From: a virus
Reading direction: 5' to 3' (one strand)
Virus record (IMG/VR): IMGVR_UViG_3300032069_000010
Coordinates: 1-64,000 of that record
Length of the DNA stretch: 64,000 nucleotides
The notes beneath the pieces are model-generated. The model did no database searches. It was not told the DNA's origin and worked only from the letters and a program-made list of their open reading frames with translations. Made by a program: the position numbers and the translations under genes. Numbering within the stretch: position 1 is the first letter of the stretch; each line of letters opens with the position of its first letter. Below are positions 27,811 through 64,000 of this stretch, piece after piece.

Positions 27811-29723
27811 GATGACAACACCTTTCCTTGAACAACGATTCTCGTAATCATGGAAGGCGATTCAGCTTCTTTCGTTTTTTGCCAGCTCACAATTTTCCCA
27901 TCGGTAACGGAAACGGATGGGATCTGCGCCGCCTTTCCAATGTTTACCTCACCAAACTCAACCGGCCAACCAATATCAACATCCATATCCCCTGGGATAA
28001 CATACTCTCTCTCAACGGTTTCTTCATAATCAACGACCTCTTTTTTTAAGTCACCGAGGATGGCTTCTGCATCATCCCACGAAATTATATTCGGATTGCT
28101 TATAATTACTGCGGGAACATCCATGGGGGTCATCTCGTCAGACGGAATTGACTCGGCGTAAATATGGCTCCTACGGCACGATTTTGGATATTTTGGGACT
28201 CTTCCCATAATTCGCTGAGTCGTATTTGACCTAACCTCGTCACCTTGTTTTCTTCGAAGGCCGGCAGGCGTTCTTCTATAAACTGCTTTTTCGTAAACAT
28301 CCTTGGTTAATTGTCTATACCTTGTTTCGGTTTCTTCAACGATCAACCTCTGTATTGCAGATGCGATGGGCCACATCATATCGGCCAGGTTTAACTCGAT
28401 ATAAGTAATATCTGTATAAAGACCCAAACCACTCTGAAGCACAAGAACATCGGTCTCTCTCGTCATATATTCAACCAACAGATTTCCATTTTTACCATAA
28501 ACCTTTGAATTAACTATCACGTCAGTTTTTCTCTTATATCTCCTAACTGGATAACCAGGGAAGTCAACAATCAGCCATGTCCACTTACTTATTGTCTGTT
28601 CTGATGATTTCTCCCTTGGTTTATCATACTCCTCACTTAAATAGTCGTACTCATTATTTGTAACTGAATCTAAAACGGTGAACTCTTCACCCATACCTTC
28701 TATCGGCACCCATGTCCCAACTTCATGCGTTGATAATAAAGCTTTCCTGTTCCCATGTGGATCTAACAAAATTGTCTCTGTTCGGGTTACCTTATCAATC
28801 CTGGGATTTTTCATTGGGACAGTAAACGACATTGGCACGTTATCTGTCGTCGTTTTTTCCCCAGTATCTTTATTTACGACTTCCCTTGTTCCCTTAACAT
28901 TAATTGTCATGTATTGTTGCGTTGCCCGCGCCGATTCCGTCGTAAGCGTAGCATTTTTTTCCGGGTGAACATTGCCCTTTTCCTTTGCCCTATTCCAAGC
29001 TCCTAACCCACCCTGGACCTTCAGATAACTCACCCTGCTGTCGTAATTAAAAATTTCTCTTTGAGTAAAATTCTCTATCTTATCCAACGATACTAACCCA
29101 CTTCTTAAAGGCTTATTGAGAATATAAATTATCCCATCATCTACAAAAATGGTTGGCTTTAAAAAATTTACAATCGAAACAATCACATCAAAATACGAAG
29201 ACTGAACGTCTGCCTGCACCTGTCTTAACCAGTAAGAACGAACGTTACAGACGACCTCTAATCCAACTTTCTGAGCTAAATAAGCAATAACCTCGCCGCT
29301 TGCCCATCCACCTTCCAGCGTCCTGTCATCACATATCTTTATTAGCGGTATATAATCCATTCCCGAATAATCCACCGCACCAGAATCATTTTGGTTTGCA
29401 ATCTCAAAATCATCTTTCTCCGATTCCGTCATAGACATAAACATCAACGTTTTTGGCGGAGCTTTTCTAATAACGTCTGCCACTTTTGAGACCCCGCCTA
29501 TCACGGTCTGGTAACCCTTGGGGCCAGAATTATACTCCCGTGTCGTCACAAACCCATTTATTCCTCTTATCGTTATGTCAGACCCGGGCGGATAGCCAGC
29601 CTCAACGCTCGGCAGTGTGAGCGAGAAATCTTCTCCAGCGGATTCTTTAGCTCGACTGATTACATAATCAGATACAGGCGTGATTCCGAATGATAATTCC
29701 TTAATATCAACCAATCGACTCAT
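27807..29723 (-). CDS. Baseplate hub-like tail protein, 638 aa
   Basis: Starts MSRLVDIKELSFGITPVSDY. The N-terminal half (SDITIRGINGFVTTREYNSG, FDVIVSIVNFLKPTIFVDDG, IIYILNKPLRSG) resembles the beta-rich hub proteins (gpP/gpD-like) encoded after the tape measure. Near the C-terminus is VPGDMDVDIGWPVEFG-like sequence. Its ATG overlaps the tape-measure stop. Exact family not certain. Confidence 0.55.
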   Translation of the reverse strand: MSRLVDIKELSFGITPVSDYVISRAKESAGEDFSLTLPSVEAGYPPGSDITIRGINGFVTTREYNSGPKGYQTVIGGVSKVADVIRKAPPKTLMFMSMTESEKDDFEIANQNDSGAVDYSGMDYIPLIKICDDRTLEGGWASGEVIAYLAQKVGLEVVCNVRSYWLRQVQADVQSSYFDVIVSIVNFLKPTIFVDDGIIYILNKPLRSGLVSLDKIENFTQREIFNYDSRVSYLKVQGGLGAWNRAKEKGNVHPEKNATLTTESARATQQYMTINVKGTREVVNKDTGEKTTTDNVPMSFTVPMKNPRIDKVTRTETILLDPHGNRKALLSTHEVGTWVPIEGMGEEFTVLDSVTNNEYDYLSEEYDKPREKSSEQTISKWTWLIVDFPGYPVRRYKRKTDVIVNSKVYGKNGNLLVEYMTRETDVLVLQSGLGLYTDITYIELNLADMMWPIASAIQRLIVEETETRYRQLTKDVYEKAVYRRTPAGLRRKQGDEVRSNTTQRIMGRVPKYPKSCRRSHIYAESIPSDEMTPMDVPAVIISNPNIISWDDAEAILGDLKKEVVDYEETVEREYVIPGDMDVDIGWPVEFGEVNIGKAAQIPSVSVTDGKIVSWQKTKEAESPSMITRIVVQGKVLSS

Positions 29724-32050
29724 CAAGATTCTCCCACCGCTGACCGCACCTCTTCCCGTAACTCATCTGGTTCACCCCACGTCTGTCCTTTGGGCGTTCT
29801 CTCTCCCCGGGTCTCCCTTGCTAACTGATTCGCTATATCCTGGAGATACGCCGTATTTTTGTTAATGCTTCCCAGGCTTTCACTGTCCCCTTCGGCACGT
29901 TTCTCTTCTTTCTCCATTTGTTTCAACATTGCCTCGAGTGACTTGTTCATATATTCCTGAGCTTTGAAAAAGTCACCCTTGCCCATAGCAATTCCAAACA
30001 TTTCCTGATAAGCTTTCCCAGCAACCCCATACTCTTTTTTCTCCGTGGCAACGCCAAGAACACCGGTGAGCATCTTCTCGCGCTCAACGCCAAATCCTTC
30101 CATTCGATACCCTTTCTCTTCTCCTATATCCCTCTTTTTGACATAAGCCCGCCAATCCTCTGTCGTTATAGCTCCATATTCCCACTTCTCACGCATCGCC
30201 ATGCTTTCCCTCAGTCGCCTTGTCTCTATATCATAAGGACTCTCCACTTCCTCGCGTCCAGCAAGAGCGCCAGCCATCGTCTTCCAAGATTGGTAATATC
30301 CAAATTTCTGTTCCGGCTTCATTACGAATGGCTCCGGTTCTTTCCACTCAGCCCCCATAGCTTCAGCTTCCGCCTTGCTCTTGGGCGTCCAGAGCGGCCT
30401 CTTCATCCATCTCTCAACCTCGCCTGGTTCGTGTTTAATCTCAAGCCCTCTGCGAAGAGTTTCTTCTTCCCAAATTTTATCGAAAGTTTTCAGTCCGGCA
30501 ACAAACCGCCTAGCGCTTTCTTCCAGTTTCTTAAAAACAAAATCCTTATCTTCCTTGGAAGGAACATACTTCTCAGCTTCCTCGATTTTCCTCTTCGCAC
30601 CCCATATCGTATCGGCAGCCGCTTCCATTGCGTTAGCCAGGTCGCCAACGCCCTCAATGGCAACGCCAATGATTTCGGCATAACCTTGAAGCGCTGGCCC
30701 TGCCATCGCTCCGATGGCTGCTCCTTTTGGTCCACCCATGGCATATCCAACCGCAGCGCCACCAGCCGCCTCAATTCCAACAGCCTTAAGGGGATTCTCC
30801 ACGCGGTATGATGCCATCGTCTTTTCCACACCAGCCATGGCGCTTCCTATGGCAGGCAATAAAACCTCTGTAAATGCAGTGACCGCAGTTTGCGCTACAA
30901 ATTTAAACGTAGCCTTCAACGCATTCCCGAGAGGCTCCTTGGCCACTTCCCATGCCCTCATTAATTCTTCCTTGGCGTTTTCCCAGACTTTTTTCAAAGC
31001 GTCAGCCAAACCACTCAAAGAAGAAATTCCTTCCCAGTCAATGCCTTTCGTAAAAACACCCGCAATCCTATCTGCAACGCTTTCCAGGAAGGAATTAATC
31101 TGTTCGGTCCATTTCTGGACTTTGTCGGACTTTAAAAATCTATCAATCGAATCGTTCAGTTTAAGCAGATAATCCACAACTTTTTGGTAAATTCCAGTCT
31201 TTCCGAGACGGTCCAACCACATCTCGTATTTATCTTTCACGTTTCCCATCTGAATTCCAAGGTTCTTCGCCGCCATTGCCATCGTATCAGCGCCGACAAA
31301 TTCGTCTGTCCATGCCTTCAATGCCTTTATTGCTTCCTGCGGAGAAGCTTTCATCTGCTCCATCGTCATGTTTGCGCTACGAGCAATCGATGCGACAGGC
31401 ACATCAAACCTGAACTGAAGGCTTCTCCAGTTCCCGGCAAGGGCCTCACGTATTGCCATCATAGCTCCAACAACGCCCTGTTCCGGTCTCATCGTAAGCA
31501 TGCCCTGAATGATGTTCATGAAGTCTTTCATCAGCCTTACATCGCCTTCCATTAGGCCAATTTTAGTTGCGGGGATAAAAGCAAGGGACTGCATCGACTG
31601 CATGACATCTCTATACATAGCAGGATATTCAGCAGCATACTCCTTGGCAAACGTGGATACCTTCGTCACTGCATCCCAGCTTTTCAACGCACCATACAGC
31701 GAAATCTCCATCTGTTGAAAACCTTCCGTGGTCTTCAACATGGATGTCGTCCATTTTGTAAAGCTTGACACTACAACACCGCCTACAACCGCAGATAGAG
31801 CGCCAACTACGGTGGTAACGGCACCTACGACCGCGACGAGGCGACCAAGGCCGGAAACAGCTTCCGAAGCCCCGCCCTTCATGGTCGTGAAAAGAGACGC
31901 CGTATCCTGTTCGGCTTTCTTAGCGCTTTCCGACATTGGACGGAACCATTGTCCACCGCCGTAAATTCGTGTGGTGCCTTCTAACTCGAGAAGCTCGGAC
32001 TTAATCTTTTGGAAACCGCTTGATTCGTACTTTACGGTAATATCGCCCAT
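29723..32050 (-). CDS. Tape measure protein
   Basis: 775 aa. Starts MGDITVKYESSGFQKIKSEL; a hydrophobic stretch at about residues 65-98 (VAVVGAVTTVVGALSAVVGG), a conserved-looking EGFQQMEISLYGALKSWDAV region, a second alanine/glycine-rich region near 400-460 (AAGGAAVGYAMGGPKGAAIG), and long charged helices. This composition and position after the chaperones are typical. At roughly 1.5 angstrom per residue it would give a tail of about 115 nm. The start codon is 13 nt downstream of a solitary CRISPR-like repeat. Confidence 0.85.
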   Translation of the reverse strand: MGDITVKYESSGFQKIKSELLELEGTTRIYGGGQWFRPMSESAKKAEQDTASLFTTMKGGASEAVSGLGRLVAVVGAVTTVVGALSAVVGGVVVSSFTKWTTSMLKTTEGFQQMEISLYGALKSWDAVTKVSTFAKEYAAEYPAMYRDVMQSMQSLAFIPATKIGLMEGDVRLMKDFMNIIQGMLTMRPEQGVVGAMMAIREALAGNWRSLQFRFDVPVASIARSANMTMEQMKASPQEAIKALKAWTDEFVGADTMAMAAKNLGIQMGNVKDKYEMWLDRLGKTGIYQKVVDYLLKLNDSIDRFLKSDKVQKWTEQINSFLESVADRIAGVFTKGIDWEGISSLSGLADALKKVWENAKEELMRAWEVAKEPLGNALKATFKFVAQTAVTAFTEVLLPAIGSAMAGVEKTMASYRVENPLKAVGIEAAGGAAVGYAMGGPKGAAIGAMAGPALQGYAEIIGVAIEGVGDLANAMEAAADTIWGAKRKIEEAEKYVPSKEDKDFVFKKLEESARRFVAGLKTFDKIWEEETLRRGLEIKHEPGEVERWMKRPLWTPKSKAEAEAMGAEWKEPEPFVMKPEQKFGYYQSWKTMAGALAGREEVESPYDIETRRLRESMAMREKWEYGAITTEDWRAYVKKRDIGEEKGYRMEGFGVEREKMLTGVLGVATEKKEYGVAGKAYQEMFGIAMGKGDFFKAQEYMNKSLEAMLKQMEKEEKRAEGDSESLGSINKNTAYLQDIANQLARETRGERTPKGQTWGEPDELREEVRSAVGES

Positions 32051-32063
32051 CTATCACTCCATT

Positions 32064-32096
32064 GTTTCAATCCACGCTCCTATACGGGGAAGCGAC
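32064..32096 (-). CRISPR. Solitary type I-C CRISPR-like repeat in the tape-measure leader
   Basis: 33 nt. On the minus strand it begins GTCGC and ends GTGGATTGAAAC, the conserved ends of type I-C repeats. Between them CGC(U)UCC pairs with GGAGCG, one bulged U explaining the extra base over the usual 32. There is no second adjacent repeat, no spacer and no cas gene. It fills most of the 52-nt gap between two genes, its 3' end 13 nt before the tape-measure ATG (AATGGAGTGATAG between). Confidence 0.85.
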
Positions 32097-32102
32097 AAAC
32101 TT

Positions 32103-32669
32103 CTATGCCCTGCCCATCTTTGTTTCCTCATCTATTTCGATGAGAATCCGGTCAAGCCGTCCTTCGGCTCGAAGCTTATCCAAATACCATTCAGGCGGGC
32201 TTGCATCAGAATCTTGCCATCCAGGTGGGTAAAGTTTTGACCTCTTGATGTCGATCATGATCATCTTTTTTACGTGGTCTAACGTAAACGGTATCTTTTT
32301 CGTTTGCGCCTGCTTATAGAAAAACCACAACTTATCGTTCATCGAACATCGCTTGGCCACGATGCCATACTTCCCAAGACAAGAATCGGCTCGCCCTTTA
32401 TCCCATCTTTTCTCTGGCGCCATCTTTGACCAAAACCGTTTCGAAACGGCAATCTTCCCTGCCACCTGAGAATAATCAAAATATTCGATGTCGTATGGGA
32501 ATGCATAAAGAGGATCTTGCAGCCACCGTTCGGCCATTTTCTTTTTACTATCTCTATCCTTTTTGGCTTTCGGATCGTACCCCCACTGAACCATTGCCTG
32601 ACGTTCCATCTCTTTAAAGATTCTCCTCTGCATGTAATACCAATACATCCGGACCAACGGCCTCGTCAT
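32103..32669 (-). CDS. Tail assembly chaperone, downstream frame (gpT-like), reached by frameshift
   Basis: The ATG at 32669 has no Shine-Dalgarno sequence, and the frame is open upstream without a stop through the end of the previous gene (to about 32845). A slippery heptamer A AAT TTC in the previous gene's phase (32822-32828) would move ribosomes into this frame, giving a fusion of about 390 aa. This is the layout of lambda gpG/gpGT-type chaperones that bind the tape measure. Contains MQRRIFKEMERQAMVQWGYD and a long helical, basic sequence. Confidence 0.7.
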   Translation of the reverse strand: MTRPLVRMYWYYMQRRIFKEMERQAMVQWGYDPKAKKDRDSKKKMAERWLQDPLYAFPYDIEYFDYSQVAGKIAVSKRFWSKMAPEKRWDKGRADSCLGKYGIVAKRCSMNDKLWFFYKQAQTKKIPFTLDHVKKMIMIDIKRSKLYPPGWQDSDASPPEWYLDKLRAEGRLDRILIEIDEETKMGRA

Positions 32670-32731
32670 TTTGGTCTGGATGTATTCTCTGCTATATCCA
32701 TACTGATGGGCAAAGGCTTCGTAAATTTCGC

Positions 32732-33280
32732 CTAAGCTGGGGTAGGTTCGGTCTTCTGGGTCTTCTCCTCTGTCCCTGCTGAGGGCGCCTTCCCCATCCC
32801 TATCATCCCCAGCAGTTTCTGGAAATTTTCTTGGCTTTCCTTGGGAAGCCCTTCACTGCTGAAGTTTTGCAGATAGAAGACCGCTGCAACGTGTTTCAAT
32901 TGAAGAAGCGTGAGCTTACTTTTTACTTCCTCGACAGGAAGGTCAAGAATCATGTGAATCCATTCGGGGACCTTTCCGCCCCCAATAATCGATTCAATAG
33001 GAGATCTTCTCATGTCAGAGAGCGTCTCCTTGTCTACTGGACATTCTTCGATCTTTTTTCCAACAGCATTTTTGACTACCTTTCCGCATTTCGGACACTT
33101 CCGGTCGGGGTTGAAAATATCATCGAAATATAGTGCGATGTCTTTCGACACCAGCTCTAACTGGCCTTCCCATAACGGGTAAAGCTCGTACGCCTTTTCT
33201 CCAATCACAATAATTCGTTTATTTTGTTCTGGTAACAATACTGCCAATTCATCCGGCACAGGAACTTCTTTTGCACCCAT
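32732..33280 (-). CDS. Tail assembly chaperone, upstream frame (gpG-like)
   Basis: 182 aa. Starts MGAKEVPVPDELAVLLPEQN; a zinc-ribbon-like CPKCGKVVKNAVGKKIEECP lies in the middle. Helical C-terminus ends KTQKTEPTPA. The A AAT TTC slippery site is 33 codons before the stop and in the right phase for a -1 shift into the next frame. Position between the tube-like gene and the tape measure supports the chaperone call. Confidence 0.7.
   Translation of the reverse strand: MGAKEVPVPDELAVLLPEQNKRIIVIGEKAYELYPLWEGQLELVSKDIALYFDDIFNPDRKCPKCGKVVKNAVGKKIEECPVDKETLSDMRRSPIESIIGGGKVPEWIHMILDLPVEEVKSKLTLLQLKHVAAVFYLQNFSSEGLPKESQENFQKLLGMIGMGKAPSAGTEEKTQKTEPTPA
32822..32828 (-). promoter_or_regulatory. Candidate -1 ribosomal frameshift site A AAT TTC
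   Basis: The zero-frame codons are GAA AAT TTC CAG, so the heptamer fits X XXY YYZ exactly. The -1 frame is open from a TGA just upstream of the site to the stop at 32103. Confidence 0.6.
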
Positions 33281-33343
33281 CGTCGTCTCCTCTTCCGGAG
33301 CTTAGGGGAAGCCATCTTCCCCTTCTCGCCCCTTCATTAAAGG

Positions 33344-34219
33344 TTATGCAATCGTGACCTTTGCAGTCCAACCAAGCGCGCTCTCGTTGACCTTCACCAT
33401 CCCGGCAGCATCTTTCGCCACCACGCAGATGAAATAATCACCAGCAGTCAAGGTCGCTAGCTCCATCGTTGATTCGTTGAAATACTGGGTGAGGTTCACG
33501 TTCGTTGAAGCCAGGCTTGCCGCCCTGTCTGCCACCGACGGAAGATCGTTCGGCTCGATTACCGACGGCTGATTATCTACCTTAAAAGCGTAGATGTCGT
33601 AATACTGAATGACTACATCGCTCGGCTTTGTCCAACTGACATTGATTCCGCTAGCCACCGTTCCCGTTGCGGTCACTCCGGTCGGTGTGGTCGGTTTTTC
33701 AAGCTGTGCCTTAATCCCCAACTGGCTGTTCTCGCCAAGCGGAGACGCAAAGGAATTCGCCTGCTGGACAATCCACCCGACTTTGCAATCCACACCGAGA
33801 GCTCCTTCGCCCGTAGCTGGAATGGTAAAGTCGGCGCCAACCGCAGTCGGGATAAACCAATCTTTCATCGACCCATACTTATCCATCACAATGCATGGGA
33901 CATTTGCCACAAACCCCTGAACGTTGGCCGCAGGCGTAACGCTCAGCGTGACGCCATTCGCTGTGAAAGCGGTATCAATTAATGACTGAACGATGTTCCT
34001 TCGGATTCCAGAAGGTCTCCCATCAAGAAGATCCGCAATCAGATCGTCGATATTCTCCATAATCGACTGCGCCCCCGATGCGGTCGCCTTTAAGAAAAAG
34101 TTTTCCGTGGCCCCCTCTTCGGTATCGACCCGGTAGCGCTCAATATCCACGGCCACCTGAGTGGTTACCTGCGCCCCTGTGACAGGGTTCGTATACTCTA
34201 CTGAAATATTCTTTGACAT
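33344..34219 (-). CDS. Tail tube-like protein with C-terminal fibronectin III-like domain
   Basis: 291 aa. Starts MSKNISVEYTNPVTGAQVTT. The C-terminal ~110 residues (KPTTPTGVTATGTVASGINV, SWTKPSDVVIQYYDIYAF) form a fibronectin type III-like repeat, common at the end of major tail proteins. It is immediately upstream of the chaperones, the usual place of the tube gene. AAAGGAGAAGGAAA precedes the ATG. Confidence 0.65.
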   Translation of the reverse strand: MSKNISVEYTNPVTGAQVTTQVAVDIERYRVDTEEGATENFFLKATASGAQSIMENIDDLIADLLDGRPSGIRRNIVQSLIDTAFTANGVTLSVTPAANVQGFVANVPCIVMDKYGSMKDWFIPTAVGADFTIPATGEGALGVDCKVGWIVQQANSFASPLGENSQLGIKAQLEKPTTPTGVTATGTVASGINVSWTKPSDVVIQYYDIYAFKVDNQPSVIEPNDLPSVADRAASLASTNVNLTQYFNESTMELATLTAGDYFICVVAKDAAGMVKVNESALGWTAKVTIA

Positions 34220-34237
34220 TTTCCTTCTCCTTTCTTT

Positions 34238-34522
34238 TTAAGATGAAACATGCCTTTGCATATTGATTTGGGCGTTGTAGAGATCGAGCGCCTCATGAAT
34301 CGCTGTTCTGCTAACATCTCCGACAATCACCCACCCATCGACGGCTTCGGCTTCTTTCGCCTCAATTTCAGATTGAAGCTCCGCCGTCGTTATCCAGTAA
34401 AACCGATACACTTTTCTCTCGATAAACCCCAACTCCTGAACGACAGATTCACCGTCAATCGTCGGCAGTTCGGTTCGTCTCTTCGTCTTAAAGGGCTTAT
34501 CAAAAACGGTTGAATAAGCCAT
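34238..34522 (-). CDS. Hypothetical tail-operon protein, 94 aa
   Basis: Starts MAYSTVFDKPFKTKRRTELP; contains RKVYRFYWITTAELQSEIEA and a C-terminal helix. GTAGGAGCTAAGG lies directly before the ATG, and the solitary CRISPR-like repeat ends 15 nt upstream. Function unknown. Confidence 0.7.
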   Translation of the reverse strand: MAYSTVFDKPFKTKRRTELPTIDGESVVQELGFIERKVYRFYWITTAELQSEIEAKEAEAVDGWVIVGDVSRTAIHEALDLYNAQINMQRHVSS

Positions 34523-34537
34523 CCTTAGCTCCTACGC

Positions 34538-34569
34538 GTTTCAATCCACGCGCCCACATGGGGCGCGAC
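34538..34569 (-). CRISPR. Solitary type I-C CRISPR-like repeat in a tail-gene leader
   Basis: 32 nt, the canonical type I-C length. On the minus strand it begins GTCGCGCCCC and ends GCGTGGATTGAAAC; CGCGCCC and GGGCGCG form a perfect 7-bp stem around CATGT. From memory it differs from the Pseudomonas I-C repeat only in the loop. No neighbouring repeat, spacer or cas gene. The stem sequence differs from that at 32064-32096 but pairing is kept. Confidence 0.9.
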
Positions 34570-34587: not shown

Positions 34588-35325
34588 TTATGGCGTTGCA
34601 GACGAATCATAGATTTCTACGGTTTCCTCTACGTTCGCCTTGTCTGTTCCGTTAAGAGTCGTCGTCCTAGTGAGCTTGTACCAATCACTAATCGCATCAA
34701 GCTCGACTTCCGTGAACAACTGCGGGCTTATCATGTTCTGCTGAGCATTTGCCACCGTGTTGCCGATATACTTTGTCAGCTCAACCGTGAACTTCTGCCA
34801 ATCCGTCACGCTCTTGCTTACTTCGACACGGCTCACGTAAAGGCCACTCTCCTGGATTGCAGGTGAATCTCCTACCGCAGGCTTAATCAGCACTTCTCCT
34901 GCATACGTATTTCCTCTATCAGCAGGTTGCATCCCCGCAGGCGGATCACCTCTCCCGTTGATCGTGATCGTAATCTTCTTCCGAAAGAAAATAAGCCCAT
35001 TTGCATAGGTGAGCTTATCCCCAAGGGCAGGGGACGTTTCAGGCTGAGTTGCAATCATGTGCGGAGTTGTGCACTGCTCTTCTTCAGCCATCGTCACTGT
35101 ATCCAACGGAACGCCAAGACTATTCCGTGTCGGATCGTCAGACTTGCCAATCCCATAAGTCTGAGCGCAAAACGATGGATTCCCTCTTCTCAGGTTATCA
35201 GTAAACTTCAAGGAGAAAATATCGGTCTCGAATCCATCCCGAAATTCCAACTGGTCAGTCAAAAAGCCATGCGTTTCAGCTTCAACCGAACCTGCTGCGC
35301 CGAATTTGGGCCACGCTGCACACAT
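34588..35325 (-). CDS. Structural protein, probably tail, 245 aa
   Basis: Starts MCAAWPKFGAAGSVEAETHG, beta-rich, with KKITITINGRGDPPAGMQPA and a C-terminal threonine-rich segment. AGGAGGGATTTACT precedes the ATG. The start lies inside the end of the upstream HNH gene (67-nt overlap). A second tube-like or neck protein is possible; family not recognised. Confidence 0.6.
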   Translation of the reverse strand: MCAAWPKFGAAGSVEAETHGFLTDQLEFRDGFETDIFSLKFTDNLRRGNPSFCAQTYGIGKSDDPTRNSLGVPLDTVTMAEEEQCTTPHMIATQPETSPALGDKLTYANGLIFFRKKITITINGRGDPPAGMQPADRGNTYAGEVLIKPAVGDSPAIQESGLYVSRVEVSKSVTDWQKFTVELTKYIGNTVANAQQNMISPQLFTEVELDAISDWYKLTRTTTLNGTDKANVEETVEIYDSSATP

Positions 35326-36122
35326 AGTAAATCCCTCCTTTCCAATAAATTCTGGAAATAGCTCTTCCAGTATTCCCTGTTTTTATTAACTTTGACGTTA
35401 CAACTAAGGCATAACGTCACCAAATTTTGGGGATCACAATTCTCTTTCTTGTAATCGATGTGATGGAGCCCTAAACCCTTGAACTGCTTCTTCCCACAAA
35501 GTTGGCATGTAAAATCATCTCTCCTTTTTATCTTATTCTTGAGACTGCCGTTAAACTCAGGCGTGTATGGCAAAAAAGATACACCACCGAGCCATACGGG
35601 CGACTTTTCACCACTCATTCCATACATTGGGTTCTTCTCGCCACTAACTCTCTCAGAATATTGCCTTCTTTGCTCATCAGTTAAATTAAAACTCACACCA
35701 AGTTTATTCCCACCCTTATAGCCAGGCTTCCTCCACAGCTTCTTCACAGAAGCACTTACTTTCCCTGCAAGCGTGCGGACCCTTTCATCATTATCTTTTG
35801 TTTTGCCAGCATTCCAAGGAACTTGTCCAGTTTTCTTCCCTTTATTCCATGCTGGTTTTCCACCAAACCTTGATCGTCTTGTTCTTTCTTCTTTGGCGGT
35901 TCTCTCCTCTGGTGTCATCGCGGCACGTAACCGGTTCCTTTTCCGTCTGGCCCACTCCACCTTATATTCCCTTTGATCAATCGTTCTTCGGGCAAGACCA
36001 TGCTTCACACCGTTATGCCCGTGAATGAATCTGTAAGGCTCGCCCTTAACCATCCCCTTACTTGGACGGTTTCTTTTTGCAATCGGGGCCGGTTTTCCAC
36101 ACCCGCATTCACATAGCTTCAT
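35259..36122 (-). CDS. HNH homing endonuclease with NUMOD3 motifs
   Basis: 287 aa. NUMOD3-type repeats are visible (WNKGKKTGQVPWNAGKTK; GEKNPMYGMSGEKSPVW), followed by an HNH domain: CQLCGKKQFKGLGLHHIDYK and then NLVTLCLSCNVKVNKN. N-terminal MKLCECGCGKPAPIAKRN adds another zinc-like cluster. It is inserted between two structural genes and overlaps both, replacing their spacing. Typical free-standing homing gene of a phage. Confidence 0.9.
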   Translation of the reverse strand: MKLCECGCGKPAPIAKRNRPSKGMVKGEPYRFIHGHNGVKHGLARRTIDQREYKVEWARRKRNRLRAAMTPEERTAKEERTRRSRFGGKPAWNKGKKTGQVPWNAGKTKDNDERVRTLAGKVSASVKKLWRKPGYKGGNKLGVSFNLTDEQRRQYSERVSGEKNPMYGMSGEKSPVWLGGVSFLPYTPEFNGSLKNKIKRRDDFTCQLCGKKQFKGLGLHHIDYKKENCDPQNLVTLCLSCNVKVNKNREYWKSYFQNLLERRDLLCVQRGPNSAQQVRLKLKRMAF

Positions 36123-36595
36123 GGCAAAACTGATTCTCTCCAAACATAGACGTTAAATTCAATCGCTTGCACGTTCACTGTCTCGCCGGCAGCTTCTGGC
36201 AGTGGGCGTGAACCGCGATACCTTGGAATCAGCACGTTTCCAGTCGGTATGGGGTTATTTTCATCATTACTAAAATCGAGCAGGTCAATCGTATCGACAT
36301 TCAATTCCTCTTGGACCTCGTCAACCATCTTGGAAAGCTCAACCCCATACCTGTCCTTCTCTATGATCGTGTTGCAATTAATTTGCAAAAGACTCACGCT
36401 GAAAATCCCAGGACCAACCCTCAACCAATAAATGTCAATCCACTTCCAGTAATCAGTCACCTTCTGCGCAATCCGTTGCTGAAGCGTTTCGTCCCCAGGC
36501 GCCGAATAGTTGACATAGTAGTTAGCTGAAAGGCGTTCCCAGACAAACTTGTTAAAACTCCTTTTGATATTCAGCTCACGGTCTTTTGCAAGCAT
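36119..36595 (-). CDS. Tail-completion-like protein, 158 aa
   Basis: Starts MLAKDRELNIKRSFNKFVWE. Position after the gp10-like gene and before tube genes, and length, fit a tail terminator; sequence alone is not decisive. AAGGGGTTTTA precedes the ATG, which overlaps the stop of the small gene upstream. Confidence 0.55.
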   Translation of the reverse strand: MLAKDRELNIKRSFNKFVWERLSANYYVNYSAPGDETLQQRIAQKVTDYWKWIDIYWLRVGPGIFSVSLLQINCNTIIEKDRYGVELSKMVDEVQEELNVDTIDLLDFSNDENNPIPTGNVLIPRYRGSRPLPEAAGETVNVQAIEFNVYVWRESVLP

Positions 36596-43897: not shown

Positions 43898-46800
43898 CTA
43901 CGCAGCCTTTTTAATGTCCACCTTTACTTTCCCATCATTCATTAGCACCGCTCTGTTCATGCCAGTCATAAGCACCGCCACGAGTCTATGGCTAAATAAG
44001 TTCGTAGGATTCCATCCAACTCGACCAAATCCAAACATCTCTCCGGTTTCGATACCTATAGGAACGAACCAACCCTCTCCTCCCAGCACAGGAAGGCCAA
44101 ATAACTCCATACTTTCTATTCCAACTACGTGAATATATCCAACAATCTTGTTAACACCAAACGTTTCTCCAGAACTGATCCCAGCAGGAACAATCAACAA
44201 TTTTAAAGCAGGCTGCCCAAAAGCCTCTTGGCTGGCAATCCCCTGTGCATAAATAAAAACTTCTCCAACAAAAATCTGTGGGGCGCCAAAAATCTCACTG
44301 CTCGAAATTGCGGTTACGTGAATGATAAAAACAAACCTGGCACTTCCAAACGCTTCTTCAGACGATATGCCAACAGCTACTACGTAAACACACAATCTTG
44401 CATTACCGAAAGCTTCTACAGACGCAATCCCTGTTGGTAGAATCGTCACGGCACCAGTTTGGACAGCCGCATTTCCGAACACCTCGGCGCTCCCTATACC
44501 AGACGGCTGGATAAACTGCTCAGCACCACCTATTTGGATCGTCGGATTCCCAAACGCTTCTTGGGAACCGATTTCAGGGACAACAACCTGAAGATTTAGC
44601 TTCGCTGACCCAAACGCTTCCTGCGTCCCGATACCAGACGCCACAATGAACATCTGGATCATTAATGTCCCAAATACTTCACTTGACCCAATCGCAGAGG
44701 GCAAGATCGACACTGCACCCGGTTGAATATTGGCAGAGCCAAATATTTCCCCAGAAACTATCGCAGACGGAAGAATCGTAACCGCACCACCCTCGATGGT
44801 AGGATTACCGAATGCCTCAGTAGTGGCTATCCCTGTAACCAAAACAAAAAGTGTTAGCTTTGCAGAGCCAAATGCTTCTGCCGAATCGATAGCAACCGGG
44901 AAAATCGTCAAGTTAACTTTGGCTGTTCCAAAAACTTCTAATGAACTAATTTCTACGGGCAGGATATTTAAGGCAAGCTTCGCGGTGCCAAAGCCTTCCT
45001 CAGAAGAAATACTGGAAGGATAAACACTAACAGCGCCGAGCTGGATCACTGCACTACCAAATACCTCAGTGCTATCAACACCAATCGGGATTATCTTCAG
45101 GTTGACCTTTGCAGACCCAAACGCCTCACCACTTGTAATGCTGACAGGGATAACCGTCACCGCACCAGGCAAAACAACGACCGTTCCAAACACTTCGACG
45201 CCCGCTATCCCGGACGGCACAATCTTCAAATTCAACTGATGCGTTCCAAATGCTTCAGCGGTCGCTACGCCTGACGGTTGAATAAATTGAGCAACCCCAC
45301 CCAAATAAACATTCGCATTCCCAAAGGCTTCCTGGGAACTGATTCCAGAAGCAACAATCTGAAGATTTAACTTCGGAGACCCAAAACTCTCCCCACTTCC
45401 AATACCAGACCCAATAATAAACATCTGAATTTTGGAAGCGCCAAATGCTTCACCCGAACCTACCCCAGAAGGTAGTATTATCACGGTGCCAGGCAAAACC
45501 GAAACTGAACCAAGCTGCTCAGCACTAACGATACCCGTTGGTAAAACATTAACAGATCCAGGCAAAACCGAAGCTGTGCCGAAAAGCTCTCCAGTTGAAA
45601 TACCCGAAGGGAAAAGAATTAAATTCAGTTTCGCAGAACCAAATGTCTCAACAGAACCTATCCCGGAAGGAAGAATCGATACCGAACCAGGCTGGACTGT
45701 GGCAGCGCCAAAAACCTCTGCGCTTCCAACACTGGTTGGCAACAATGTTACTGAACCTGGCTGGATCGTCGCTGAACCAAAAACCTCTGATGTAGAGATA
45801 CCAGAAGGAACAACCTTTAAAATCAGCTTTGCAGACCCGAATGATTCGGCAGACGCAATGCCAGAAGGATAAATCGTCAAAGCACCCGCTTGAATCGTGG
45901 CGGCGCCGAAAGCCTCAGTAGAACTAATCCCTGAAGGAATTATTGTAGCGCCACTAAGCTGGACTGTAGGATTGCCGAACGCCTCGGCGCTTGTTATTCC
46001 TGATGGATATATAAAAGAGGAGTAATATTCTTGCGTTGGTGGAGTAAAACCAGAAGTCCATCTTGCTATTCCTTTGGAAAATCTGAATTCATCTATCCAA
46101 CCATTAAGGGGATTAGAAGCGTATTCCCCTGTCCTTCCAACAGAGAACTTATAATTAGAACTGATTAAGGTGTAGCCACCAACACCCATCAAACCACGTT
46201 GAACTCCATCTATAAATATTTTAAGATTTGTTCCATCTCTCACACAGGCGATGTGGTGCCACAAGCTATCGGTAATTGCAACGTCTGATGCAAGTTCATA
46301 ATAACCGGATTCTGTATTTAGTGCCCAAAAATTGAATTTATTATCAGCAGAAAAGAACAACCAGAAAGGTGCGCTATCTGGGTACGAACTCCCGCTCTGT
46401 CCAGTTACATACTGTACCGTTCCGAATGCTCCACGCTTTATCCAAAAATCTACAGTAAAATCTCCGGATAGCACATCAAAATCATCAGAGTCCGGAGTAT
46501 CAATCCAGTCCCCCGTCCCATCAAATAATGCGCTTGCTCCACCAAACTCAGATTGTGCTGTATCGATTTGGGCATTACCATAGGGTGTCCATGTATGTGA
46601 GCCGCCTATCCCATCGTCAATAAAATTCGTTGAGCCATCGGCTCCATTCAAATGAAGAAGAGATTTAGTTAAGATATCGTTGCCGCCAGGACCTAAACCG
46701 CCGCCCTGAATTGTAAGGCCACCAAATGCCTCAGCGCTTGCTATCCCTGATGGAAGTAGATAAATGCCTGCTGTCCAGGTAGGGGTATCGATCTTCTCGG

Positions 46801-47356
46801 CAATCCCTTCATTGTGAACCCAATAGACATCCGCAGCATTGTTACCACCCGAAACTTCCGCATACCACTCAATTTCAAGAAATAGATACTCGTTGCTTAA
46901 TATAATTTCAGAAGCGCTATTCCATGTAATTGTCCCTGTCTGATACTGATTGGCTGCAGTGAAGCCAATTTGTGTTGATGACCGCCACCCAGGAGTTAGC
47001 TGCGTCGCACCTGAGCCATCCGCATTTGTGCTTTTCCACAATCTAAATTTGATATATCCTTTTTGAGCATAGTAATTGTCGCATTTAACTTTAAACGCAA
47101 GCACCCAGTTTCCGGCGCTAAACTTCCCCTGGAGTGCATTAATTGACCGATACCCCAATGCTCCAAAAGCGGTTGGCTCAGTAACAAAAGTAGCGTAAGC
47201 TTGTTGTGTATCAGGCTTGTAAGGTGAGGCGAGATAAGTTTTTTTGTCAACAGTCCAACCCTGAGCTTCATCTAAGCTGGCGGGAGCGGATTCGGCCAAC
47301 TGTTCATACGTTAAAGCATATCCAGATATGTCTGTGTCTGATAAATAATAAATCAT
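43898..47356 (-). CDS. Long tail fibre: LamG-like domain plus about 32 SAEAFG repeats
   Basis: 1152 aa. Residues ~1-200 beta-rich; ~230-440 a LamG/concanavalin-like domain (FGGASALFDGTGDWIDTPDS, SLWHHIACVRDGTNLKIFID, WIDEFRFSKGIARW); then about 32 copies of a repeat with core GISSxEAFG, in two unit lengths of 20 and 23 residues (the longer adds PGAVTIL-type sequence). A final ~60-residue end follows. The ATG overlaps the previous stop. Likely a beta-solenoid shaft carrying a sugar-binding head. Confidence 0.8.
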   Translation of the reverse strand: MIYYLSDTDISGYALTYEQLAESAPASLDEAQGWTVDKKTYLASPYKPDTQQAYATFVTEPTAFGALGYRSINALQGKFSAGNWVLAFKVKCDNYYAQKGYIKFRLWKSTNADGSGATQLTPGWRSSTQIGFTAANQYQTGTITWNSASEIILSNEYLFLEIEWYAEVSGGNNAADVYWVHNEGIAEKIDTPTWTAGIYLLPSGIASAEAFGGLTIQGGGLGPGGNDILTKSLLHLNGADGSTNFIDDGIGGSHTWTPYGNAQIDTAQSEFGGASALFDGTGDWIDTPDSDDFDVLSGDFTVDFWIKRGAFGTVQYVTGQSGSSYPDSAPFWLFFSADNKFNFWALNTESGYYELASDVAITDSLWHHIACVRDGTNLKIFIDGVQRGLMGVGGYTLISSNYKFSVGRTGEYASNPLNGWIDEFRFSKGIARWTSGFTPPTQEYYSSFIYPSGITSAEAFGNPTVQLSGATIIPSGISSTEAFGAATIQAGALTIYPSGIASAESFGSAKLILKVVPSGISTSEVFGSATIQPGSVTLLPTSVGSAEVFGAATVQPGSVSILPSGIGSVETFGSAKLNLILFPSGISTGELFGTASVLPGSVNVLPTGIVSAEQLGSVSVLPGTVIILPSGVGSGEAFGASKIQMFIIGSGIGSGESFGSPKLNLQIVASGISSQEAFGNANVYLGGVAQFIQPSGVATAEAFGTHQLNLKIVPSGIAGVEVFGTVVVLPGAVTVIPVSITSGEAFGSAKVNLKIIPIGVDSTEVFGSAVIQLGAVSVYPSSISSEEGFGTAKLALNILPVEISSLEVFGTAKVNLTIFPVAIDSAEAFGSAKLTLFVLVTGIATTEAFGNPTIEGGAVTILPSAIVSGEIFGSANIQPGAVSILPSAIGSSEVFGTLMIQMFIVASGIGTQEAFGSAKLNLQVVVPEIGSQEAFGNPTIQIGGAEQFIQPSGIGSAEVFGNAAVQTGAVTILPTGIASVEAFGNARLCVYVVAVGISSEEAFGSARFVFIIHVTAISSSEIFGAPQIFVGEVFIYAQGIASQEAFGQPALKLLIVPAGISSGETFGVNKIVGYIHVVGIESMELFGLPVLGGEGWFVPIGIETGEMFGFGRVGWNPTNLFSHRLVAVLMTGMNRAVLMNDGKVKVDIKKAA
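44060..46010 (-). repeat. DNA encoding the 20/23-residue fibre repeats
   Basis: About 30 consecutive units of 60 or 69 nt, each coding a variant of GISSxEAFG; adjacent units diverge at the third codon positions but keep the protein core. Shorter runs occur at 23340-23680 (five units) and 21330-21430 (two units). Confidence 0.75.
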
Positions 47357-63615: not shown

Positions 63616-64000
63616 GTCGGGTAGACCTGAGCGGCTACCCATTCAGCCCCTCCACAGATTCGGACATGCAGATTTCCCGCATCCGGCTCCTCAGATTACG
63701 GATTCGCTGCTCAACGATAAATTGAGTGCACCACAAACTGCTGATGGAAGAGGATACCGCTTTAGGATGTAATCGAACCGATCCCACGTCATGTTAGACT
63801 GTTGAGAAGGACGATTAAGCCATTTGTGCTCATAAGGAAATCGTGACAGGGCTGATTCATTTCCCATGGTCCCATCATACTCGAAATGCCCTGCCTTTGG
63901 GTGTTCCGGTGAGAGATAAGGATTTAGTTACCATTACAGGGAAGATCGGTTTCCGTATAAGAGGAGTGAAGACGATTGAATATTTCCTGGCTGAGGAAAT
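63616..64000 (-). mobile_element. 3' end of a group II intron
   Basis: Minus strand. Domain V is recognisable at 63657-63689: GAGCCGGATGCGG, GAAA, then TCTGCATGTCCGAATC, with the AGC triad and a two-base bulge. Domain VI follows (GGGTAG/CTACCC stem), ending CTACCCGAC at 63616, the typical intron 3' end with a branch-point A seven bases before it. The intron extends past the right edge. Confidence 0.8.
63691..63926 (-). pseudogene. Degraded C-terminus of a group II intron reverse transcriptase
   Basis: The frame ending at 63691 reads AGHFEYDGTMGNESALSRF, PYEHKWLNRPSQQSNMTWDR, FDYILKRYPLP, aligning with the maturase C-terminal pattern GHFxYYGVxGNxxSLxRF and WLNRRSQRxSMTWxxFxxLL and YPLP. A short deletion before KWLNR and an in-frame TAA upstream (about 63927) show that it is broken here. 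The canonical RRSQ is RPSQ. Confidence 0.7.

Follow-up and report, generated by a model that had tools for sequence, protein, structure and literature searches.

Why would a phage carry, in the operon for its structural proteins, two single sequences that look like CRISPR repeats? The record concerned (IMG/VR record IMGVR_UViG_3300032069_000010) is a viral contig whose genes include those for a T4-like capsid, portal, and prohead protease, and the window analyzed here is its first 64,000 nucleotides. An earlier note had placed one single type I-C repeat at each of two positions on the minus strand of this window and had proposed that they are candidate RNA anti-CRISPRs (Racrs). We found both repeats exactly there (Table 1) with both fixed ends intact, each carrying GTCGC at the 5' end and GTGGATTGAAAC at the 3' end. 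This 12-mer has two exact occurrences in the window and, when up to one mismatch is allowed, three matches against 0.49 expected; the reversed two-part repeat pattern, used as a control, has no match in the window. Repeat 1 forms a 7-pair hairpin followed by the 11-nt 3' part UGGAUUGAAAC, and repeat 2 a 6-pair hairpin, including one U-G pair, followed by an identical 11-nt 3' part. A covariance model trained on viral solitary repeats scored repeat 1, whose sequence is part of the model, at 52.3 bits (E 9e-12) and repeat 2, whose sequence lies outside it, at 35.7 bits (E 4e-7). Nothing further fell below E 0.6 in the window, and the 64,748-base record holds two confident matches. Both hairpins do pair, as had been claimed, and repeat 1 folds at -14 kcal/mol. 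That of repeat 2, at -6.9 kcal/mol, barely beats shuffled sequences (z -0.69); it is weak in isolation, and the repeat may refold with its flanking sequence.

Are these repeats truly solitary? Pattern and covariance searches of the window found no second repeat near either one, and no CRISPR array was found in the phage. No cas family appears among the Pfam matches (25 of 27 matched families covered) or the PADLOC matches of the scanned window proteins. The reported lack of spacers, arrays, and cas genes is borne out by these searches. Each repeat is a full-length, solitary, intergenic repeat match with a preserved hairpin and no cas association, as expected of a solitary repeat unit; for repeat 2, the full-length match rests on the 35.7 bits and both fixed ends, without an exact match. 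At least two repeats around a spacer would make a mini-CRISPR array, and neither repeat is part of such an arrangement.

Table 1. Repeats, adjoining genes, and other features of the window.
Feature	Position	Strand	Remark
Repeat 1, solitary type I-C repeat (32 nt)	34538..34569	minus	GTCGCGCCCCATGTGGGCGCGTGGATTGAAAC, read 34569-34538
Repeat 2, solitary type I-C repeat (33 nt)	32064..32096	minus	GTCGCTTCCCCGTATAGGAGCGTGGATTGAAAC, read 32096-32064
245-aa protein without family match, upstream of repeat 1	34588..35325	minus	78-79% identical in both relatives
94-aa protein without family match, downstream of repeat 1	34238..34522	minus	same place in repeat-less relatives
188-aa protein without family match, upstream of repeat 2	32103..32669	minus	
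775-aa tail protein, tape-measure-like, downstream of repeat 2	29723..32050	minus	phrog_1047 (tail)
HNH homing endonuclease with NUMOD3 motif	35259..36143	minus	overlaps start of the 245-aa gene upstream of repeat 1
1152-aa tail protein	43898..47356	minus	eight stretches match phrog_13352 repeats
T4-like portal gene, 1225 aa	59649..63326	minus	HNH-type insertions at two separate places (residues about 73-350 and 768-993)
Group II intron-like domain	63616..63691	minus	35.5 bits, below Rfam cut-off; resembles sites in three Syntrophales genomes

Leftward ORFs make up 89 of the 93 called, and the repeats occupy gaps of a leftward structural operon, where each follows a stop codon and precedes the ribosome-binding site of the gene after it. 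For repeat 1 the upstream stop codon is 18 nt away and the next ATG 15 nt, for repeat 2 the corresponding distances are 6 nt and 13 nt, and 2.4 kb separate the two. Intergenic gaps amount to about 6% of the window, and the chance that both repeats would fall inside them is about 0.004; both repeats are also in sense within the operon. A promoter scan gave nothing above chance before either repeat; their sense orientation in a one-directional operon makes it likely that they are expressed as RNA. The description of their sites as tail-gene leaders holds for repeat 2 in that a tape-measure-like ORF follows it (the protein has an 83% identical relative in L122), but the sites are gaps between genes of one operon, and the ORF after repeat 1 has no family match. 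The 245-aa protein is a probable structural protein, judging by its place in the tail operon. No acr gene was recognized adjoining the repeats, and the 94-aa gene is probably a structural or assembly gene rather than an acr gene, because relatives without the repeat have it at the same position.

Several further features of the window concern mobile elements and other gene families (Table 1). The two insertions in the portal gene suggest inteins or nested homing elements; an intein splicing domain is present among the window proteins and is probably located in this gene. Window proteins also match the DRAT-like ADP-ribosyltransferase (5e-6) and SocA/Panacea antitoxin (3e-16) families.

We next consider whether the repeats are fixed parts of this operon. 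Two viral contigs (L123 and L124) have the operon in common with the window: IMGVR 3300001580_001418, with about 81% DNA identity over 6 kb, and IMGVR 3300031749_000457, with about 66-70% DNA identity. Alignment to the 245-aa protein gave no relatives beyond the same two contigs, and no named phage was found to be DNA-related to the operon. Neither relative has a recognizable repeat anywhere. At site 1, the 81% relative has about 20 unrelated bases instead of the repeat and the other relative has nothing; at site 2, the former has 11 unrelated bases and the latter a shorter gap. The closer of the two nevertheless retains the ribosome-binding sites and start codons. Because two phages with the same operon lack both repeats, these are removable insertions, not fixed parts of gene control, and their absence argues against a fixed housekeeping role. 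With three genomes compared, it is simplest to assume that the window's lineage gained them, and loss in the lineages of the two relatives may have occurred instead. The hairpin and handle are not conserved in these related phages, and loss from close relatives, which the earlier note had named beforehand as grounds for giving up its proposal, finds a match in the absence of both repeats from the two closest relatives. We do not count this absence as refuting decoys, because counter-defence elements are expected to come and go rapidly. For testing, the most useful new fact is that close relatives differ in the presence of the repeats: with two different I-C mimics in one structural operon and relatives without them, gain or loss can be dated and the phages tested in pairs.

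Where could the repeats have come from? The exact 32-mer of repeat 1 is present in four genome contigs, one of which, from the Bacteroidales, has five copies in an array, and the same repeat with one loop base changed is common in arrays of many lineages, including Syntrophales. Exact copies of repeat 1 were not found in other viral contigs, and none of 84,980 genomes contains an exact copy of repeat 2, which resembles another repeat type than that of repeat 1. Comparison with the repeats of these genomes, a check that the earlier note had advised for candidate hosts, yields an exact counterpart for repeat 1 and none for repeat 2. The note had also taken the two differing yet pairing stems as a sign of selection. 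That argument is weak: repeat 1 is identical to one array repeat, and the two stems are probably separate borrowings from two source array repeats. Because they look inherited from these sources, they do not provide independent evidence of selection.

In the search for a host, none of 1,101 unique I-C spacers matched the phage. Eight genomes with the same repeat were also searched for capsid genes, and about 150 Syntrophales and 99 genomes of the order to which the Bacteroidales contig belongs were searched for DNA matches; no spacer or prophage match was found in these candidate host lineages. Among the DNA matches, those that stood out were mainly repeat 1 and a short one at the group II intron-like site, which is a weak pointer to a host lineage.

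Is the arrangement peculiar to this phage? A strict I-C pattern scan of viral contigs gave at least 119 stretches, most with one match, and at least 96 solitary repeats from other viral contigs after arrays and duplicates were removed. Solitary I-C repeats are common in viral contigs. The listed solitary repeats together with the window's two comprise 93 distinct sequences, and the first variable stem pair forms in 88 of these, versus 40 with shuffled partners, among the matches listed. Among the same matches, 26 equal-length repeats have compensatory changes in 27 cells versus 7 in shuffles and a covariation of 0.467 versus 0.157; these 26 sequences, used for the pair count and the model, were hand-picked from 32-nt solitary repeats, and the 93-sequence count is independent of that choice. 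The hairpin is kept by compensatory changes across the class, and it is for the class only that selection on the hairpin is shown.

The class also resembles the window in its setting. Among the matches listed, 27 of 97 have a ribosome-site plus ATG motif within 75 nt downstream on the repeat's strand, as against 6 with the antisense arrangement (p 0.0003), a count that uses these motifs and not gene calls; genes near the 96 viral repeats were called simply as the longest ORFs, and counts of repeats "inside a gene" are not to be trusted. Several of the listed phages carry 2-4 solitary I-C repeats. The neighbors, again among the matches listed, include terminase, portal, head protease, polymerase, and recombination genes, and they differ widely from phage to phage. 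Paired, leader-placed repeats next to late genes are a recurring pattern, not one peculiar to the window's phage, and the setting is not as new as had been supposed.

One feature of the class is not present in the window. Among the matches listed, AAAC directly follows 12 of 97 solitary I-C-type repeats, versus 11 of 1,101 array spacers (p 3e-8). Examples come from eight viral contigs, and some have (AAAC)2-5 followed by AAGC, in one case (L193) even with a different stem. Such a tract is possibly an unstructured dummy spacer for Cas7, or a product of slippage. No AAAC extension follows either of the window's repeats.

We consider it probable that the two repeats are Racr-like RNA anti-CRISPR decoys located in untranslated gaps of a late polycistronic mRNA. 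Solitary repeat units act as RNA anti-CRISPRs for types I-C, I-E, I-F, and V-A (PMC10651486), and in type I-C, Cas5c processes the repeat and, together with Cas7, forms a clamp on the 5' handle from which assembly is nucleated (PMC7684278). From this cutting and this clamp we infer that a fragment downstream of an I-C repeat would carry the handle and could nucleate a dead complex. In a host with an I-C system, Cas5c would recognize the hairpin in the phage mRNA and cut at its 3' base, as in normal pre-crRNA, so that the downstream mRNA would then start with a genuine I-C 5' handle. Cas5c would remain on this handle and nucleate Cas7 along a sequence useless as a guide, and abundant late transcripts would draw Cas5c and Cas7 away from crRNA complexes. 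A site after the stop codon and ahead of the ribosome site would allow operon-driven expression without a promoter of its own, with neither gene disturbed.

The classification as candidate Racrs, which had been proposed from the start, has good support from the sequence and structure of the repeats, from their sense orientation in intergenic gaps, and from the literature (PMC10651486). The same paper cautions that some solitary repeats may serve other roles. Several points tell against decoys: late expression would follow early interference, no acr gene was recognized next to the repeats, the hairpin of repeat 2 is weak and may refold with its flanks, an exact array counterpart of repeat 2 is lacking, and both relatives manage without the repeats. 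In addition, the search for phage-matching spacers was negative, and a cognate I-C system in the host is an assumption of the decoy reading.

Alternatively, the repeats could serve host-dependent mRNA processing or regulation, which we regard as unlikely. Cas5c would cut the late mRNA before the tail genes, or Cas proteins would cover the ribosome-binding site, and translation would then depend on the CRISPR state of the host. The short distance of both repeats from a start codon and the mostly sense orientation of start-adjoining viral I-C repeats fit this idea, but the same genes are present in both relatives without the repeats, so that such control is not needed, and neighboring genes vary widely among phages. 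A coupled version, which we likewise think doubtful, would turn the phage's late mRNAs into CRISPR traps: it would have Cas5c-cut structural-gene mRNA start with an I-C handle and acquire a Cas7 coat over the ribosome-binding site, joining tail-gene translation to CRISPR titration and making late output depend on the Cas state of the host.

The presence-absence polymorphism, together with the weak stem of repeat 2 and its lack of an exact array match, would also be expected if the repeats were relics, functionless debris left by a lost array or by recombination with arrays of the host. We judge this improbable, as two different repeats lie 2.4 kb apart with their fixed ends intact, each of them in sense and within a gap, and compensatory stems are kept across the class. 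It is very unlikely that each repeat and the mRNA following it form a one-spacer guide, that is, a crRNA targeting sibling phages without a repeat at the site. Mini-arrays of archaeal viruses mediate such conflicts (PMC6858448, PMC11656645), and the sequence downstream of the repeats is partly common to the repeat-less L123, but a second repeat is lacking. The motif of type I-C is TTC. The L123 sites are preceded instead by GAT and CTT and have several mismatches. Although the repeats are short G+C-rich hairpins in gaps, a transcription terminator or a chance repeat-like leader hairpin can be set aside with little hesitation, as neither stem is followed by a T run or was called in a terminator scan and the complete I-C ends are matched exactly, which goes far beyond what chance would give. 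The mini-array, terminator, and array-relic readings all rank below the decoy reading.

How do these candidate decoys compare with known systems? Virus-borne mini-CRISPR arrays likewise bring repeats of the host type into a virus that lacks cas genes, but they have at least two repeats around spacers, of which the window has none (PMC6858448). The 2,103 viral solitary repeat units listed in PMC10651486 share with the window's repeats a solitary, intergenic position and their mimicry of host repeats. RacrIC1, from a Bifidobacterium pseudocatenulatum prophage, is also a solitary I-C repeat in a phage genome without an array or cas genes (PMC10651486). It lies 11 nt downstream of acrIC5, on a bicistronic mRNA with a protein gene, and its inhibition was measured, whereas the window's candidate decoys are two different repeats in gaps of a structural operon with late structural genes as neighbors. 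An operon setting as such is not novel, given this bicistronic precedent. RacrIF1 resembles the window's repeats in being an intergenic solitary repeat that mimics host repeats, but its active product lies upstream of the Cas6f cut, is held by Cas6f and Cas7f, and has its own promoter (PMC10651486). Type I-C lacks Cas6, so the active part in this type is more likely the downstream mRNA, which would bear the handle. The many viral I-C repeats found in sense in leaders suggest that the mRNA itself carries the decoy, which in turn suggests a possible mechanistic difference from the type I-F case.
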